Below, one piece after another: positions 1 to 8,608 of a stretch of 64,000 nucleotides of DNA. Made by a program: the position numbers and the translations under genes. The number at the start of each line of letters is the position of its first letter. The stretch's first letter is position 1. The stretch lies in contig CAKZOC010000253.1 in the NCBI GenBank assembly GCA_937136025.1, positions 1 through 64,000 of the forward strand, written 5' to 3'. The notes under the pieces are model-generated. The model was not told the DNA's origin. It searched no databases and saw nothing but the letters and a program-made list of their open reading frames with translations. The DNA is from an uncultured Bacteroidota bacterium (GTDB lineage Bacteria > Bacteroidota > Bacteroidia > Flavobacteriales > Flavobacteriaceae).

Positions 1-2184
1 ATACCCCACCCCTTCAACCGTAGTTATACTTCCCGGGGCACTGAAATCATCATCAAATGTGTAGAAATAGCCATTTGAACTGAATTTCGCATCAAAGATA
101 TTGTTCACAAGCAGGGTCAGGGCCACATCCGAAAACCAGCCAAAGGGTTTCATACGGTACCGGAGATTGAAATCGGTCTGGGTGTAGGCCTCGAGTTTTG
201 ATTTTTCGGCCTCAATATTGCTCATATACTGTTCTCCAACAAACTTGGTGAGCAGGGCAAACTGCAAGTCTTCAGACAGGTTATACACCAATCGGCTCCC
301 CAGAACCACTTCCGGAGAAAAGGCGATCCGGGTGTTTCCCAAATTGGTCAGCTCCCCATCTCTCCTGAAAAAGAAATCGATATTGCGATTCGTACTCAGG
401 GCCAGGTTGGGTTGCCATTGAAATGCGCGACCGAGTGGCATGTCCACATCGATTTCCAGACCCAGCCTGTAACTATCTCCAATATTGGACCGGATAGGAG
501 CTCCAACATCGTTGAGCTCCCCGGTGAGTACCAGCTGATCCTTATAGCGCATGTAATACACGTTGGCGTTTATACTGGTGCCTTGCTTCAGGTACCGCCA
601 CCCCAATTCGAAGTCCTGCAGGCGTTCCGGTTTGGGATTCCCATTTTCATAGTCATTCCTGTTAGGCTCCCGGTTTGCCACGGCATAGGAAAGATAGAGG
701 TTTTGAGAAGGGTTAATCCGATACGTAATCCCGGATTTTGGGTTAAAAAACCGGAAGCGATCATCCACCAGTCCTGTTTGTTCCCCGTTTGCCTGGTAGC
801 GAACACCTCTGTACTGAAGATCGAGAAAGAATTGCCACTTGTCCCCTAAACGGTAATTGGCTTTGGCAAATATATTGAGATCGTCTTTTTGTGAATCGTC
901 CTCATAATACCGATCCCGGGGCTCGAGATTCCCGGCATACCTGGCCCAGATCACCTCTCCGAAATGATCCCCCCTGTAGGTATTCCACCCTCCTCCGAGG
1001 AGCAACTCCAGAGGCCCTTTTCTGTAGGTACCCGAAAAAACAGTCCCATAGAAATCATTGTCCAGCCAACGCCGGCGTGCATAATCCATAGTACTGATTT
1101 CCTCTCCGTCGACTACCGTATTTGCCAGACCGAGAAAACTCAATTGGGCATCCGGGGCAAATAGGATATTGCTGTAATACCACTCGTCTACGTATTCCTC
1201 AAAAAATCCACGCCCCCGGGTATAGTGGAGGGCGATATTGGTTTGAAAAGCCTCTGTCCATTCCTGGTTCCAGTGCAATTGGAAGTGGTCCTGTTTGTAG
1301 TCGTCCACCTGATTGTCGTAAAAGCCCTCGAAATTTCCATCCCGGTCAAACTGAATACCGGCGATATTATACCTGCGGTTGGTCTCCAGACTGTTGTCGA
1401 CCCCGATAGAACCCAGTACGTCGGGATCAAAACCATACCAGGACTGGTAGGTCACTTCGTGACCCCCAAACATAAGGGCCTTCACAAGGGTTTTTTCCTT
1501 TACAAAAGCACCCTGAAGAAAGTAGGAATCCAAATCCGAAGCGGCGCGGTCAATATACCCGTCAGAGGCAATTCGGGAGAGTCGGCCCGAGAATTCGAAT
1601 TGATCACCCAATAAACCTGTACTGAATTTCGCGGTGGCCCGGTGCGTATTAAAACTGCCTGCCGAAACCGTAAGCTCAGCGTAGGCCTCGGATGAGACCA
1701 CGTCCGTGAGAATATTCAGGCTGGCCCCAAAGGCTCCTGCCCCATTGGTAGAGGTTCCCACACCTCGTTGAAGTTGCAGACTTTCCGTAGAAGAGGCGAA
1801 GTCGGGCATATTGACCCAGAAAGTCCCCTGTGATTCCGCATCGTTATAGGGAATTCCGTTTATAGTGACATTTACCCGGGTGGCATCACTACCCCGCACC
1901 CGTATTCCGGTGTATCCAATCCCGGCACCTGCATCTGAGGTAGTGACTACGGAAGGAAGGTAGTTCATTAGGATCGGAATGTCCTGTCCAAGATTGCGTT
2001 TTGCAATGCGGTCTTTATTCAGGTTGGAAAAGGTGACCGGGGCCTCACGGGTTACCCGAACAGCAGAGACGAGAACCTCATCCAGTGCAATTTGTTCCGC
2101 TTCGGTGGTATCAATCGGTGTTTGCTGGGCTAGTGTTGACAAAGGGATCGATAAAAACAATCCCCATAAAACCATCTTTTTCAT
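1..2184 (-). CDS. TonB-dependent outer membrane receptor, putative thiamine/precursor uptake (C-terminus runs off the window edge)
   Basis: Manual minus-strand translation from ATG at 2184: MKKMVLWGLFLSIPLSTLAQQTPIDTTEAEQIALDEVLVSAVRVTREAPVTFSNLNKDRI... then plug motif YTGIRVRGSDATRVNVTINGIPYND. Missing from the ORF track because it is open at the edge. Preceded by a TPP riboswitch. Confidence 0.9.
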   Translation of the reverse strand, partial: MKKMVLWGLFLSIPLSTLAQQTPIDTTEAEQIALDEVLVSAVRVTREAPVTFSNLNKDRIAKRNLGQDIPILMNYLPSVVTTSDAGAGIGYTGIRVRGSDATRVNVTINGIPYNDAESQGTFWVNMPDFASSTESLQLQRGVGTSTNGAGAFGASLNILTDVVSSEAYAELTVSAGSFNTHRATAKFSTGLLGDQFEFSGRLSRIASDGYIDRAASDLDSYFLQGAFVKEKTLVKALMFGGHEVTYQSWYGFDPDVLGSIGVDNSLETNRRYNIAGIQFDRDGNFEGFYDNQVDDYKQDHFQLHWNQEWTEAFQTNIALHYTRGRGFFEEYVDEWYYSNILFAPDAQLSFLGLANTVVDGEEISTMDYARRRWLDNDFYGTVFSGTYRKGPLELLLGGGWNTYRGDHFGEVIWARYAGNLEPRDRYYEDDSQKDDLNIFAKANYRLGDKWQFFLDLQYRGVRYQANGEQTGLVDDRFRFFNPKSGITYRINPSQNLYLSYAVANREPNRNDYENGNPKPERLQDFELGWRYLKQGTSINANVYYMRYKDQLVLTGELNDVGAPIRSNIGDSYRLGLEIDVDMPLGRAFQWQPNLALSTNRNIDFFFRRDGELTNLGNTRIAFSPEVVLGSRLVYNLSEDLQFALLTKFVGEQYMSNIEAEKSKLEAYTQTDFNLRYRMKPFGWFSDVALTLLVNNIFDAKFSSNGYFYTFDDDFSAPGSITTVEGVGY

Positions 2185-2302
2185 TCGTATGCCGTTTACG
2201 AATAAAAGGGGCCATTATCCTGTGATGACTTGTTGTTCGTGGCAAAATGCCCACCCGGACGGAAAGAAGATAGTCTTCTAAATAGAGGACATACTCTCTC
2301 AG

Positions 2303-2398
2303 TGTTCCCTTGGCAGCATTACCTGCCCAGGTTCATCGGGTATACTCTCAGCCCGGTTTTTTGCGATTTACGCTCCTGAAAAACCAAAGCACCCCTTA
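2303..2398 (-). promoter_or_regulatory. TPP (thi-box) riboswitch aptamer
   Basis: Minus strand reads TAAGGGGTGCTTTGGTTTTTCAGGAGCGTAAATCGCAAAAAACCGGGCTGAGAGTATACCCGATGAACCTGGGCAGGTAATGCTGCCAAGGGAA. It contains the conserved GGGGTGC, GCTGAGA, ACCCGATGAACCTG and TAATGC..AAGGGAA blocks in order. Confidence 0.95.
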
Positions 2399-2408
2399 TG
2401 AGATGCCG

Positions 2409-2416
2409 CAAAGATA
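2409..2416 (-). promoter_or_regulatory. Bacteroidota -7 promoter element (TATCTTTG) upstream of the TPP riboswitch
   Basis: Minus strand TATCTTTG matches TAnnTTTG and lies about 10 nt before the aptamer 5' end. No clear TTG -33 was identified. Confidence 0.6.
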
Positions 2417-2470: not shown

Positions 2471-4009
2471 TCAGGGTTGGTGGGCCGCCTTGAGCAGGTC
2501 ATTTACCGTTTTAACCGGGTTGAAAGTACTCCCCGGAACCTCTACAAAAACCGTATTCCAATACGCCATGCCCCCATTCCAGAGACCGGGAAGCTCTAAA
2601 GCCTTTAATTCCCTGCCTTCAAAGGTTTTTGAAGCGATAAAGCCCTGTTTGGAATTCACATATTGCAGCAAGTCTAATTTCTTACCAAAAGCATCGCGAA
2701 CCCCGCAGACTAAATCTACCGGATTAAAGTGCGTCGCCTTTTCAAAAATCAGGAGTTGGGCTTCGTCTTCCAAATCCACCTGAGCCGACTCGACGATTTG
2801 CAGGGATTCATTTCCCATGGCATCTGTAATCCAGAACGGACCTCCCCCGGGGTCTCCTTCGTTTCGGACCATTCCGCAAACCCGTATAGGGCGAGACAGC
2901 TTATCGATGAGTACGGCCATCTGTTCTTCGAGGCTGTAGCCGGGAAAGGCATCGGGAAAACGCACATTCAATCCTGTCTCCAGAAAGGCGTGGACGCGTT
3001 TTAACAAATCGTGGTCTACTGTTCCATCGACCAGCATCCTGTGAAAACTGAACGCCTTGGACTGGACTTTGAGCAGATACCCGGCCAGCACCTCCTTCCA
3101 GGCCACAATTTCTTCTAAAGACCGGTCCGGAACTACATTGTCAATATTTTTAATAAACAGCAGATCTGCCTCCTGTTCGTTGAGGTTTTCCAAAAGGGCG
3201 CCATGTCCGCCGGGCCGGAAAAGCAATTGTCCGTTTTCCTCGCGGAACGGCTCATTCTCCGGAGTAACTGCCAGGGTATCTGTGGACTCCTTTTGATAGG
3301 AATAGGTGATTTCAAAATCACAACCGGCAGCAGCGGCTATCCTGCCCGCAAATGATTTCTCTTCCGCCTGGAACAAGTCCCAGTGTTGAGGGGAAATAGT
3401 AAAATGAAGACGAGAAACAGAGCCCGATCGCCCATAGGCAGCCCCTTCCTTTAAATGTTCTACAAAAGGAGTCGCCGTTCGATTTCCGTACCGGTGAAAG
3501 GGCAAAAGGCCTTTGGGATAGAACCCGTAATTCTTTCCTCTTTCGGTGAGCATTTCAGAGACGAAAGCATATAACATCTCTCCCTGAGTTTGAGGTGTTG
3601 CCGACAGAGATCCGGAGATTTCATCGTAAAACGGAAACCGTTGCAGGCCTTCATAAAAGGTTTTAATCCCCTTGTACTGCGGAAGGTTTACATATTCGTC
3701 AAGCCGTGTCACCTTGGGATTAAACCCTTGTAAAAACCCGAATAAATCTTTAAACATTCGGGAAGCCGCCCCGGAAGCCGGGATAAATTTAAGAGCTCTG
3801 AGATTGCGACTGTGCTCCTGATAATGTTTGCGGAGCTGCTCTTGTTGCTCAGAGGAAAGGCGGATAATCCCATCCCCAACAACTGCCGCTTTGACCAGCG
3901 CAACATAAGGTATTCCCTCCTGAAAGGTTTGAATTTGCTGCGTGGCTTTTTCGGGACTAATCCCTTTTTTAGACAGGAGAAGTTTGTCTTCCTCTGAAAA
4001 TGGATTCAT
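2471..4009 (-). CDS. DUF4301 family protein
   Basis: 512 aa ORF, MNPFSEEDKLLLSKKGISPEKATQQIQTFQEGIPYVALVKAAVVGDGI...; start overlaps the upstream kinase stop (ATGA type). Confidence 0.8.
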   Translation of the reverse strand: MNPFSEEDKLLLSKKGISPEKATQQIQTFQEGIPYVALVKAAVVGDGIIRLSSEQQEQLRKHYQEHSRNLRALKFIPASGAASRMFKDLFGFLQGFNPKVTRLDEYVNLPQYKGIKTFYEGLQRFPFYDEISGSLSATPQTQGEMLYAFVSEMLTERGKNYGFYPKGLLPFHRYGNRTATPFVEHLKEGAAYGRSGSVSRLHFTISPQHWDLFQAEEKSFAGRIAAAAGCDFEITYSYQKESTDTLAVTPENEPFREENGQLLFRPGGHGALLENLNEQEADLLFIKNIDNVVPDRSLEEIVAWKEVLAGYLLKVQSKAFSFHRMLVDGTVDHDLLKRVHAFLETGLNVRFPDAFPGYSLEEQMAVLIDKLSRPIRVCGMVRNEGDPGGGPFWITDAMGNESLQIVESAQVDLEDEAQLLIFEKATHFNPVDLVCGVRDAFGKKLDLLQYVNSKQGFIASKTFEGRELKALELPGLWNGGMAYWNTVFVEVPGSTFNPVKTVNDLLKAAHQP

Positions 4010-4569
4010 GGAATCAAGAGTTTATCGATGTGGTAAATGGCTTCCTTAAGCCGTTTTTCAGGGGATCCGCTCAATATAATAAAACTGCGGTTATAAAGCT
4101 CCAGAGCGGATCTGAATCGTGCAAACATTTCTTCCCGCTCTTCAGGTTTATCGCGAAGATCATCCGGAACCCAGGGCACGTCAATACCGGTTAGTAAATA
4201 CAGATCGTAGGTGTTCTGTAAGGCATATTTTTCAATATCCGGATCGCAGTAACCGTCGTAATACGCCTCAGAGTAGACTTTAGTGACCAAAAGGTCCGTA
4301 TCGCAAATCAACAAACGGTTGGCCGAGCGGGTCAAGGTATTTTCCCGGGCGATCTGGCCTGCACCAATTGGAGGAAGATCTTCTGGTTGGCATGTCTCGC
4401 GGGTGCGATCCCATTTTTCCTGTAGGTACTCCCGGGCGTATTCCGGAACCCACTCGGTTTGGTAATAGGAGGCCAGGGCTATGGCCAGGGTTGTTTTCCC
4501 TGTAGATTCAGGTCCAAAAACCACCACTTTCAGGATGTCCGAAGGCTCTTGTCTAAACGTTTTTTCCAT
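4006..4569 (-). CDS. NadR-like P-loop ATPase/kinase
   Basis: Walker A FGPESTGKTT, VPEYAREY, ICDTD; NadR ribosylnicotinamide-kinase-like fold. Start reassigned from 4719 to ATG at 4569 (MEKTFRQEPSD). Confidence 0.8.
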   Translation of the reverse strand: MEKTFRQEPSDILKVVVFGPESTGKTTLAIALASYYQTEWVPEYAREYLQEKWDRTRETCQPEDLPPIGAGQIARENTLTRSANRLLICDTDLLVTKVYSEAYYDGYCDPDIEKYALQNTYDLYLLTGIDVPWVPDDLRDKPEEREEMFARFRSALELYNRSFIILSGSPEKRLKEAIYHIDKLLIP

Positions 4570-5168
4570 TCCCGATATCCTTGGATTGCCAAGATAGTAA
4601 ATATCAGATACTGCAGGGACAGCATTCCCCAGCCCCGGTACGCATAAAGGGGTATGGTGATGAGATCTGCCAAAATCCAGAGGGTCCAGTTTTCCAATTT
4701 TTTGGTTGCCATATACCACATGGCGGTAAAGAATATTCCTGAGGTAAGTATATCCACATAATTGGAGGGTCCCATCGGGACATCAAAGACCTTGTAAATG
4801 ATATAATTTAATCCTGAGGCGGCCACAAACAGTAGAAATCCGATAGCCTTTTCGGTATTGTTGGTTCTGGAAATATGCACTACCGAAGCGCCTTCTTTCT
4901 GCCGGGCCCAGTTCCACCATCCATAAATACTCATAAGCGAGTAATACAGATTGATCATCATATCTCCGAGAAGCCTGTCCTTAAAGAAAAGATACATAGT
5001 GATCACCGTTGCGATCAACCCGGTGGGGTACACCAGGATACTTTCGCGTTTGGCCAGGACCACGCTGGCAATCCCAAATACAAAAGCGAACACTTCAAGC
5101 AGGATAAAAAATACGGAACGATCCCGATACGGATCCAGGAAAAAATCAAAAATGGGGCTCATAGGCAC
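4530..5168 (-). CDS. PnuC-family transporter (PnuT-like candidate)
   Basis: 212 aa multi-helix protein with YGWWNWARQK and WxxAD..IPLYAYRG segments typical of PnuC family; genomic context suggests thiamine rather than nicotinamide riboside. Confidence 0.8.
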   Translation of the reverse strand: MPMSPIFDFFLDPYRDRSVFFILLEVFAFVFGIASVVLAKRESILVYPTGLIATVITMYLFFKDRLLGDMMINLYYSLMSIYGWWNWARQKEGASVVHISRTNNTEKAIGFLLFVAASGLNYIIYKVFDVPMGPSNYVDILTSGIFFTAMWYMATKKLENWTLWILADLITIPLYAYRGWGMLSLQYLIFTILAIQGYREWKKRLDKSLRTS

Positions 5169-8029: not shown

Positions 8030-8608
8030 TTACTTACCTGTCAACGCTTTCAGCAGTTCAGCCTTCTTCATGGAAGAATACCCGCTGATGCCTTTTTCTT
8101 TGGCCAGAGCTTTGAGATCTGCAACGGTTTTCCCGCTGATATCTTCCACTGCTTCTGTAGCAGCCTTTACTGCTTTTGCTTTCTGAGGAGCTTCCTTTTT
8201 CGGAGCTTCCGCCGGAGCAACAGCTTCCTTTTTGGCCGCAGCCTTCTCAGCAGCTTTTACCGGAGCTTCTTTGGACGCCGTTTCAGTCTTAGCTCCCGAA
8301 GCCTTGATTCCTTCAATCAATAATTCGGTGAGGTACTGCCGGTGCCCGTTTTTAACCCGGTATCCTTTTCTTCTCTTTTTCTTGAAGACAATAACCTTGT
8401 CTCCCTTAAGGTGCTTTACAATTTTTGCCTCTACGGCAGCACCTTTTATAGCCGGGGCGCCTACGGTTACCGATGCATCATTGCCAATCAGAAGAACGTT
8501 GTTGAAGGTCACTTTGTTTCCTTCTTCTTCTTTCAGGCGATGCACGAAAACCTTCTGGTCTTTTGCAACTTTAAATTGCTGCCCTGCTATCTCTACAATT
8601 GCGTACAT
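8030..8608 (-). CDS. rplU: 50S ribosomal protein L21 with C-terminal Ala/Lys linker and Rho_N/SAP-like tail
   Basis: MYAIVEIAGQQFKVAKDQKVFVHRL...GYRVKNGHRQYLTELLIEGI core, then about 90 aa extension ending TVADLKALAKEKGISGYSSMKKAELLKALTGK. Confidence 0.95.
   Translation of the reverse strand: MYAIVEIAGQQFKVAKDQKVFVHRLKEEEGNKVTFNNVLLIGNDASVTVGAPAIKGAAVEAKIVKHLKGDKVIVFKKKRRKGYRVKNGHRQYLTELLIEGIKASGAKTETASKEAPVKAAEKAAAKKEAVAPAEAPKKEAPQKAKAVKAATEAVEDISGKTVADLKALAKEKGISGYSSMKKAELLKALTGK

Follow-up and report, generated by a model that had tools for sequence, protein, structure and literature searches.

A thi-box leader with a start-codon hairpin before a TonB-dependent receptor gene of Flavobacteriaceae: a probable translational OFF riboswitch

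How does a thi-box leader control the gene of an outer-membrane receptor, and what does it sense? The question is raised by a minus-strand locus at the start of the window (the whole 64-kb stretch of DNA analysed). Flavobacteriaceae are considered dependent on outside vitamin B1, and Rodionov et al. reportedly predicted thi-box-regulated outer-membrane receptors in 2002. TPP-riboswitch control of a TonB receptor is already known, and is not new here: OMthi (BT2390) of B. thetaiotaomicron was tested genetically, and when it was deleted along with the biosynthesis operon, the thiamine requirement rose ~10-fold; whether TPP riboswitches of Bacteroidetes control transcription or translation is uncertain according to the authors (PMC5613172). 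For the present locus we favor, and consider likely, an OFF riboswitch that acts on translation and belongs to the TPP (thi-box) family; it would sense intracellular B1 status and control a TonB receptor for the uptake of thiamine or one of its phosphorylated forms.

The promoter and aptamer parts of the leader are listed here; leader families are identified by label, and f1 is taken as the Flavobacteriaceae from its named members.

2409–2416, minus strand: TATCTTTG, Bacteroidota-type -7 promoter element (exact sequence).
2287–2406, minus strand: TPP-family (thi-box) aptamer (RF00059 match and 77 of 80 relatives).
2399–2404, minus strand: AUCUCA, with which the transcript probably starts (UCUCA conserved in f1).
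2392–2397, minus strand: P2 5' strand AAGGGG, complementary to CCCCUU at 2206–2211 (sequence; cross-family complementarity).
2352–2388, minus strand: P3 arm, extended by a long insert, the optional P3a absent (RF00059 alignment).
2338–2351, minus strand: CUGAGAGUAUACCC, pyrimidine-sensing J3/2 (UGAGA) and P2 3' strand (sequence).
2306–2334, minus strand: GAACCUGGGCAGGUAAUGCUGCCAAGGGA, P4-P5 arm, with the canonical J4/5 (thiM C77/G78) missing or paired (cmscan alignments and tabulation).

In a 351-base search, cmscan aligned the full RF00059 model (1–105) to the minus strand at 2287–2406 with 35.3 bits (E 1.9e-5), a score below the Rfam gathering score of 54.3 bits for this family; in a scan of the whole 64-kb window no Rfam family reached its gathering threshold. 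Genome-wide (3.38 Mb, 99.97% complete) this thi-box was the sole RF00059 match (E 4.3e-5). The thi-box core lies directly 5' of the same receptor in 77 of 80 related loci from named genomes, which excludes a chance match, and the thi-box is retained despite its sub-threshold score because match and conservation agree. Both the pyrimidine-binding J3/2 (CUGAGA) and the L5 UAAU feature (GGUAAUGC) are present in the window, and P3 arm length differs between relatives. The leader reads as a true, if atypical, representative of the TPP riboswitch family. The preliminary description had placed a thi-box in tandem before a TonB receptor on the minus strand, and both the covariance model and the relatives bear this out; the lack of any covariance-model hit, which it had named as a refutation, is not what the search gave. 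Its aptamer coordinates (2303–2398) are better set at about 2287–2406, with a functional leader that reaches the start codon at 2184–2182, and its term "complete" does not suit an aptamer whose P4-P5 region is without the canonical J4/5 pyrophosphate-site nucleotides.

The -7 element had been read correctly to the letter (TATCTTTG), and conservation now accompanies it: TAnnTT[T/C]G ends 10–19 nt (mostly 12–16) before the aptamer GGGG in 191 of 199 leaders, whereas a control stretch gave 8 of 199. Transcription would begin just 5' of the aptamer, with a predicted start at about 2400–2404. The 5' UCUCA (2399–2404) is complementary to the ligand-binding UGAGA (2346–2350, minus strand), a pairing that could not show covariation. 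It is seen in the unconstrained MFE structures of some leaders, such as L013, and AUCUCA may pair with the pocket UGAGA in ligand-free RNA.

The genes of the locus are as follows.

1–2184, minus strand: TonB-dependent outer-membrane receptor, OMthi-like (Pfam plug and barrel; 3' end cut by the contig end).
2471–4009, minus strand: DUF4301 protein (PF14134) of a putative thiamine-salvage cluster (Pfam; order conserved).
4006–4719, minus strand: NadR-like kinase, AAA_28 (Pfam; anticorrelation with thiamine pyrophosphokinase, TPK).
4530–5168, minus strand: PnuC/PnuT-family inner-membrane transporter, the only one found in the genome (Pfam and genome search).

The ORF from 2184 had been called a TonB receptor, rightly so: plug (PF07715, 4.8e-10) and beta-barrel (PF00593, 3.3e-29) domains were both matched, behind an N-terminus that by eye is signal-peptide-like. 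The window starts at contig base 1, and since related receptors measure 744 aa and the ORF runs off the contig, about 16 residues are missing. The nearest named relatives of the genome, judged by the receptor, are Robiginitalea species, of the Flavobacteriaceae. On the same strand the upstream order is PnuC transporter, NadR-like kinase and DUF4301, then thi-box and receptor, with the PnuC-family gene 2.1 kb upstream of the thi-box; the OMthi-type combination of a thi-box in the leader and a PnuT-family gene nearby is found here. The full gene order, with a phosphopantetheinyl transferase gene, recurs in 36 of the 80 relatives and shorter forms in most others, some of these loci being cut. The DUF4301 gene, whose function is not known, often lies between the NadR-like kinase gene and the thi-box, and is possibly involved in B1 salvage. 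Elsewhere in the window, an ORF at 8030–8608 (minus strand) resembles ribosomal protein L21 with a long C-terminal extension and, by eye, a Rho-N/SAP-like end.

Searches of the genome did not find ThiC or TPK. Partial matches to ThiG (29.7 bits) and ThiE (20 bits) shared a single ORF (G000:C115:3453-3737), probably another TIM-barrel protein, and were rejected. Because ThiC, ThiE, ThiG and TPK were not found, import of vitamin B1 (thiamine) is the likely role of the receptor. As the preliminary description had it, the receptor would take up thiamine, a phosphorylated form or a precursor; vitamin B1 uptake is still the best functional guess, with the nearby PnuC gene and the OMthi phenotype pointing the same way, the substrate being judged from this context. 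Across 201 Flavobacteriaceae genomes, TPK was found in 17 and a NadR-like protein in 188. TPK is present in 7 of the 13 genomes without a NadR-like gene, compared with 10 of the 188 that have one (Fisher P 1.1e-5, uncorrected for phylogeny), and because of this anticorrelation the NadR-like kinase is a candidate for the thiamine (pyrophospho)kinase apparently missing from most Flavobacteriaceae.

The most informative stretch of the leader is the platform around the start codon, which the preliminary description overlooked. Three elements of the platform matter below.

2200–2220, minus strand: hairpin A, GGAUAA-UGGCCCCUU-UUAUUC, with the C-run in its loop (conserved pairing; mutually exclusive with hairpin B).
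2206–2211, minus strand: CCCCUU, proposed anti-aptamer segment (sequence comparison).
2182–2203, minus strand: hairpin B, start-codon sequestering, AUUCGUA-aacggca-UACGAAUG (comparison and folding).

The platform GAAUAA-n-CCCCUUUUAUUCGU-loop-ACG(A/G)AUG, in this form or nearly so, lies between aptamer and AUG in 78 of 78 leaders (the window and 77 relatives). Searched for as a DNA pattern, it had a single match in each of 64 Flavobacteriaceae genomes out of 201, and the reversed pattern had none. All 30 pattern loci that were inspected lie between a thi-box and a receptor-like ORF of similar kind; 22 of the thi-boxes were recognized by regex and the other 8, which vary in the letters following CCC, by reading. 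The arms AUUCGU and ACGAAU of hairpin B close over the AUG. In f1, positions -3 to +2 were unpaired with a mean probability of 0.03, compared with 0.50 in shuffled leaders. This value was less strongly lowered in f2 (0.29 vs 0.56 shuffled) and in f63 (0.18 vs 0.52), which use other sequences, and by the same comparison f67 and f64 showed no AUG sequestration. The spacing of the arms varies widely, and a wobble-compatible change in one arm, ACGAAU to ACGGAU, is found in 27 of 103 distinct platforms. This start-codon layout appears common to much of the order Flavobacteriales, several other families keeping it with different letters.

Just 5' of hairpin B, and sharing a strand with it, is hairpin A. 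Its UUAUUC strand can pair at 6 of 6 positions with the upstream hexamer in all 103 distinct f1 platforms, against 4.4% for the null, and the hexamer variants GAAUAG, GAGUAA and GGAUAA preserve the pairing through wobble. A C-run is found 5' of the AUG in 193 of 200 leaders. Stems of the hairpin A type with at least 6 bp reach 83% in f63 (9% shuffled), 80% in f64 (21%) and 45% in f67 (19%), and stems unrelated in sequence, such as CAGAUAA/UUAUCUG, CCACUAACA/UGUUAGUGG and CACGUUG/UGACGUG, hold the C-run in their loops in f63, in f64 and in some f67 leaders. In f2 the hairpin A stem is weak.

The C-run complements the 5' strand of aptamer P2. Of 16 distinct leaders with bases other than AA or AG before the GGGG, 7 were fully paired, where 1.7 were expected from random partners (P 0.0012, with no correction for phylogeny). 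Both flanks pair in only 62.5% of distinct C-run/P2 combinations, compared with 37% when partners are swapped between families, again without phylogeny correction. Compensatory pairs are CAGGGG:CCCCUG (L245, L246) and ACGGGG:CUCCGU (L252–L256); misfits also exist, seven f67 leaders carrying CCCCAU, for example.

In the OFF switch that we propose, two competitions would set the state of the leader: P2 in the ligand-bound aptamer would compete with the C-run for GGGG, and hairpins A and B would compete for UUAUUC/AUUCGU. With little ligand, the free P2 strand AAGGGG would pair with the CCCCUU shown in the loop of hairpin A, and hairpin A together with this P2 pairing would occupy the UUAUUC strand required by hairpin B, so that the AUG would be open and receptor would be made. 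With ligand bound, P2 would form within the aptamer and the C-run would be freed; hairpin A, weak alone, would then yield to hairpin B, burying the AUG and stopping synthesis. Median energies were -1.6 kcal/mol for hairpin A, -9.2 for the long-range duplex and -10.2 for hairpin B, and since hairpin A plus duplex comes near hairpin B, the balance fits the needs of a switch. Nested-structure folding, a model outside which pseudoknots fall, kept hairpin B in all states with the AUG unpaired at ~1–4% and did not demonstrate switching; because hairpin B stays closed throughout, we infer that the ON state requires a pseudoknot. This folding outcome tells against the model, as do the C-run/P2 misfits, the f67 and f64 leaders in which the AUG is not sequestered, the weak hairpin A of f2 and the 62.5% figure. 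Sequence comparison shows the aptamer family, the platform and its confinement to these leaders, the pairing of the AUG and the match of C-run and P2 strand; the direction of switching, the pseudoknotted ON state, the ligand and the receptor substrate are predictions that go beyond it.

The missing pyrophosphate site makes the identity of the ligand a sharp experimental question. According to a published structure analysis, a metal bound by G60, C77 and G78 keeps the pyrophosphate in place, and G78 is also in direct contact with the pyrophosphate (PMC3764141). In the window the consensus CG of J4/5 aligns to a C and a gap. The C77/G78 dinucleotide is gone in ~190 receptor leaders, nearly all of the Flavobacteriales ones, in families f1, f2, f60, f61, f63, f64 and f67; of 50 comparison loci that were parsed, 46 keep a C77/G78-type CG (47 with one parse corrected). 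Two regex positives for a canonical J4/5, L009 and L266, proved to be fully paired CGCGG/CCGCG stems. Where a genome has two thi-boxes, canonical J4/5 is kept in the ThiC-operon copy (74.4 or 69.0 bits) and missing from the receptor copy (35.8 or 41.1 bits); the 74.4-bit and 35.8-bit copies come from one genome. Among 20 receptor leaders scanned, L110 (G022:C44, 64 bits) alone reached the gathering score. L110 combines canonical J4/5 with the start-codon platform of the other leaders, which shows these features to be separable. Outside Flavobacteriales, L177, L179, L180 and L181 are thi-boxes with a shortened or altered P4-P5 before receptor-like genes, and in L177 and L179 the P4-P5 still ends in CG, but paired.

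The closing helix P1 was rejected as a switching helix in f1, own pairing being equal to swapped pairing: the longest helix was 3.34 with the own flank and 3.28 with a swapped partner, compared with 5.39 and 4.09 in a Bacteroidia thi-box comparison set. The window alone can form 5 bp, and f1 as a class does no better than swapped. P1 thus seems not to be conserved in the window's family, f1; the aptamer lacks one defining feature, the pyrophosphate site, and f1 as a class a second, P1. There is good support for a leader that behaves in the manner of a TPP riboswitch, whereas TPP itself is a putative ligand, given that P4-P5 is without the canonical J4/5 nucleotides.

A variant thi-box that senses thiamine or TMP, or is promiscuous, instead of sensing TPP, its switching unchanged, is a possibility that we entertain tentatively. 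The absence of a C77/G78-type CG across receptor leaders, when 46–47 of 50 comparison loci keep it, argues for this, as do the split between the ThiC-operon and receptor copies of the same genome and the role of G60, C77 and G78 at the pyrophosphate (PMC3764141). Against it, neither the pyrimidine pocket nor the L5 loop is altered, the pyrophosphate may be held in another geometry, and L110, where canonical J4/5 goes with the same platform, suggests the same role with either pocket. We are doubtful of the broader proposal of an order-wide Flavobacteriales variant for B1 import, in which the pyrophosphate site (in the main family also P1) would have been lost, thiamine or TMP would be sensed and a loop-to-P2 pseudoknot would open the start-codon hairpin, all beside canonical TPP riboswitches of the biosynthesis operons. 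It is improbable that the receptor imports another substrate, for example one like nicotinamide riboside, with thi-box control secondary. This would fit the PnuC and NadR-like pair, their families being classically NR salvage genes, but PnuT thiamine transporters are themselves PnuC-family members, thi-box control is conserved across families, thiamine synthesis genes and TPK were not found in the genome, and OMthi offers a precedent.

The platform evidence bears on two further readings. No conserved terminator was seen on inspecting the leaders, and the near-invariant start-codon element, specific to thi-box receptor leaders, pairs with the AUG far beyond shuffles; we accordingly see little room for an ordinary TPP riboswitch with a transcription terminator or some other generic platform and a merely coincidental start-codon repeat, even though terminator-type platforms are common among TPP riboswitches elsewhere. 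Least probable of all, the repeat would serve a transcription factor as an operator in the DNA and would form no RNA hairpin. The nearly fixed letters of the repeat in Flavobacteriaceae would suit such an operator, but not the widely variable arm spacing, the wobble-compatible one-arm change (27 of 103), or the unrelated yet pairing letters over the AUG in other families.

The translational OFF switch that we prefer gives a specific, testable mechanism from comparison alone, present in many Flavobacteriaceae, where the action of TPP riboswitches in Bacteroidota had been called uncertain in the OMthi report (PMC5613172). No description of the start-codon platform, of P1-less TPP riboswitches or of Bacteroidota TPP variants was found in the open-access literature searched. 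Annotation at the Rfam threshold misses the class, since 19 of the 20 receptor leaders tested fall below the cut-off.

With canonical RF00059 members (E. coli thiM and the ThiC-operon thi-boxes of Flavobacteriales) the receptor leaders share the P2-P5 fold, the UGAGA pocket, the UAAU L5 loop and the segments GAACCU and AGGGA; they differ in that those of Flavobacteriaceae are without a conserved P1, that C77/G78 is missing from J4/5, and that all but one of those tested stay below the gathering threshold. In the enterobacterial translational TPP riboswitches (thiM, thiC), ligand likewise represses translation by hiding the initiation region, whereas in the present leader a hairpin of its own encloses the AUG, and the segment proposed to do the switching is a partner for the 5' strand of P2 (the thiM side of this comparison being general knowledge). 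The start-codon platform described here is not reported for OMthi in the part of its report consulted, and the neighbors differ, tnr3 (annotated as thiamine pyrophosphorylase) adjoining pnuT there and the NadR-like kinase gene adjoining PnuC here; both systems place a TPP-family riboswitch before a TonB receptor and have a PnuT-type transporter in the salvage set (PMC5613172).
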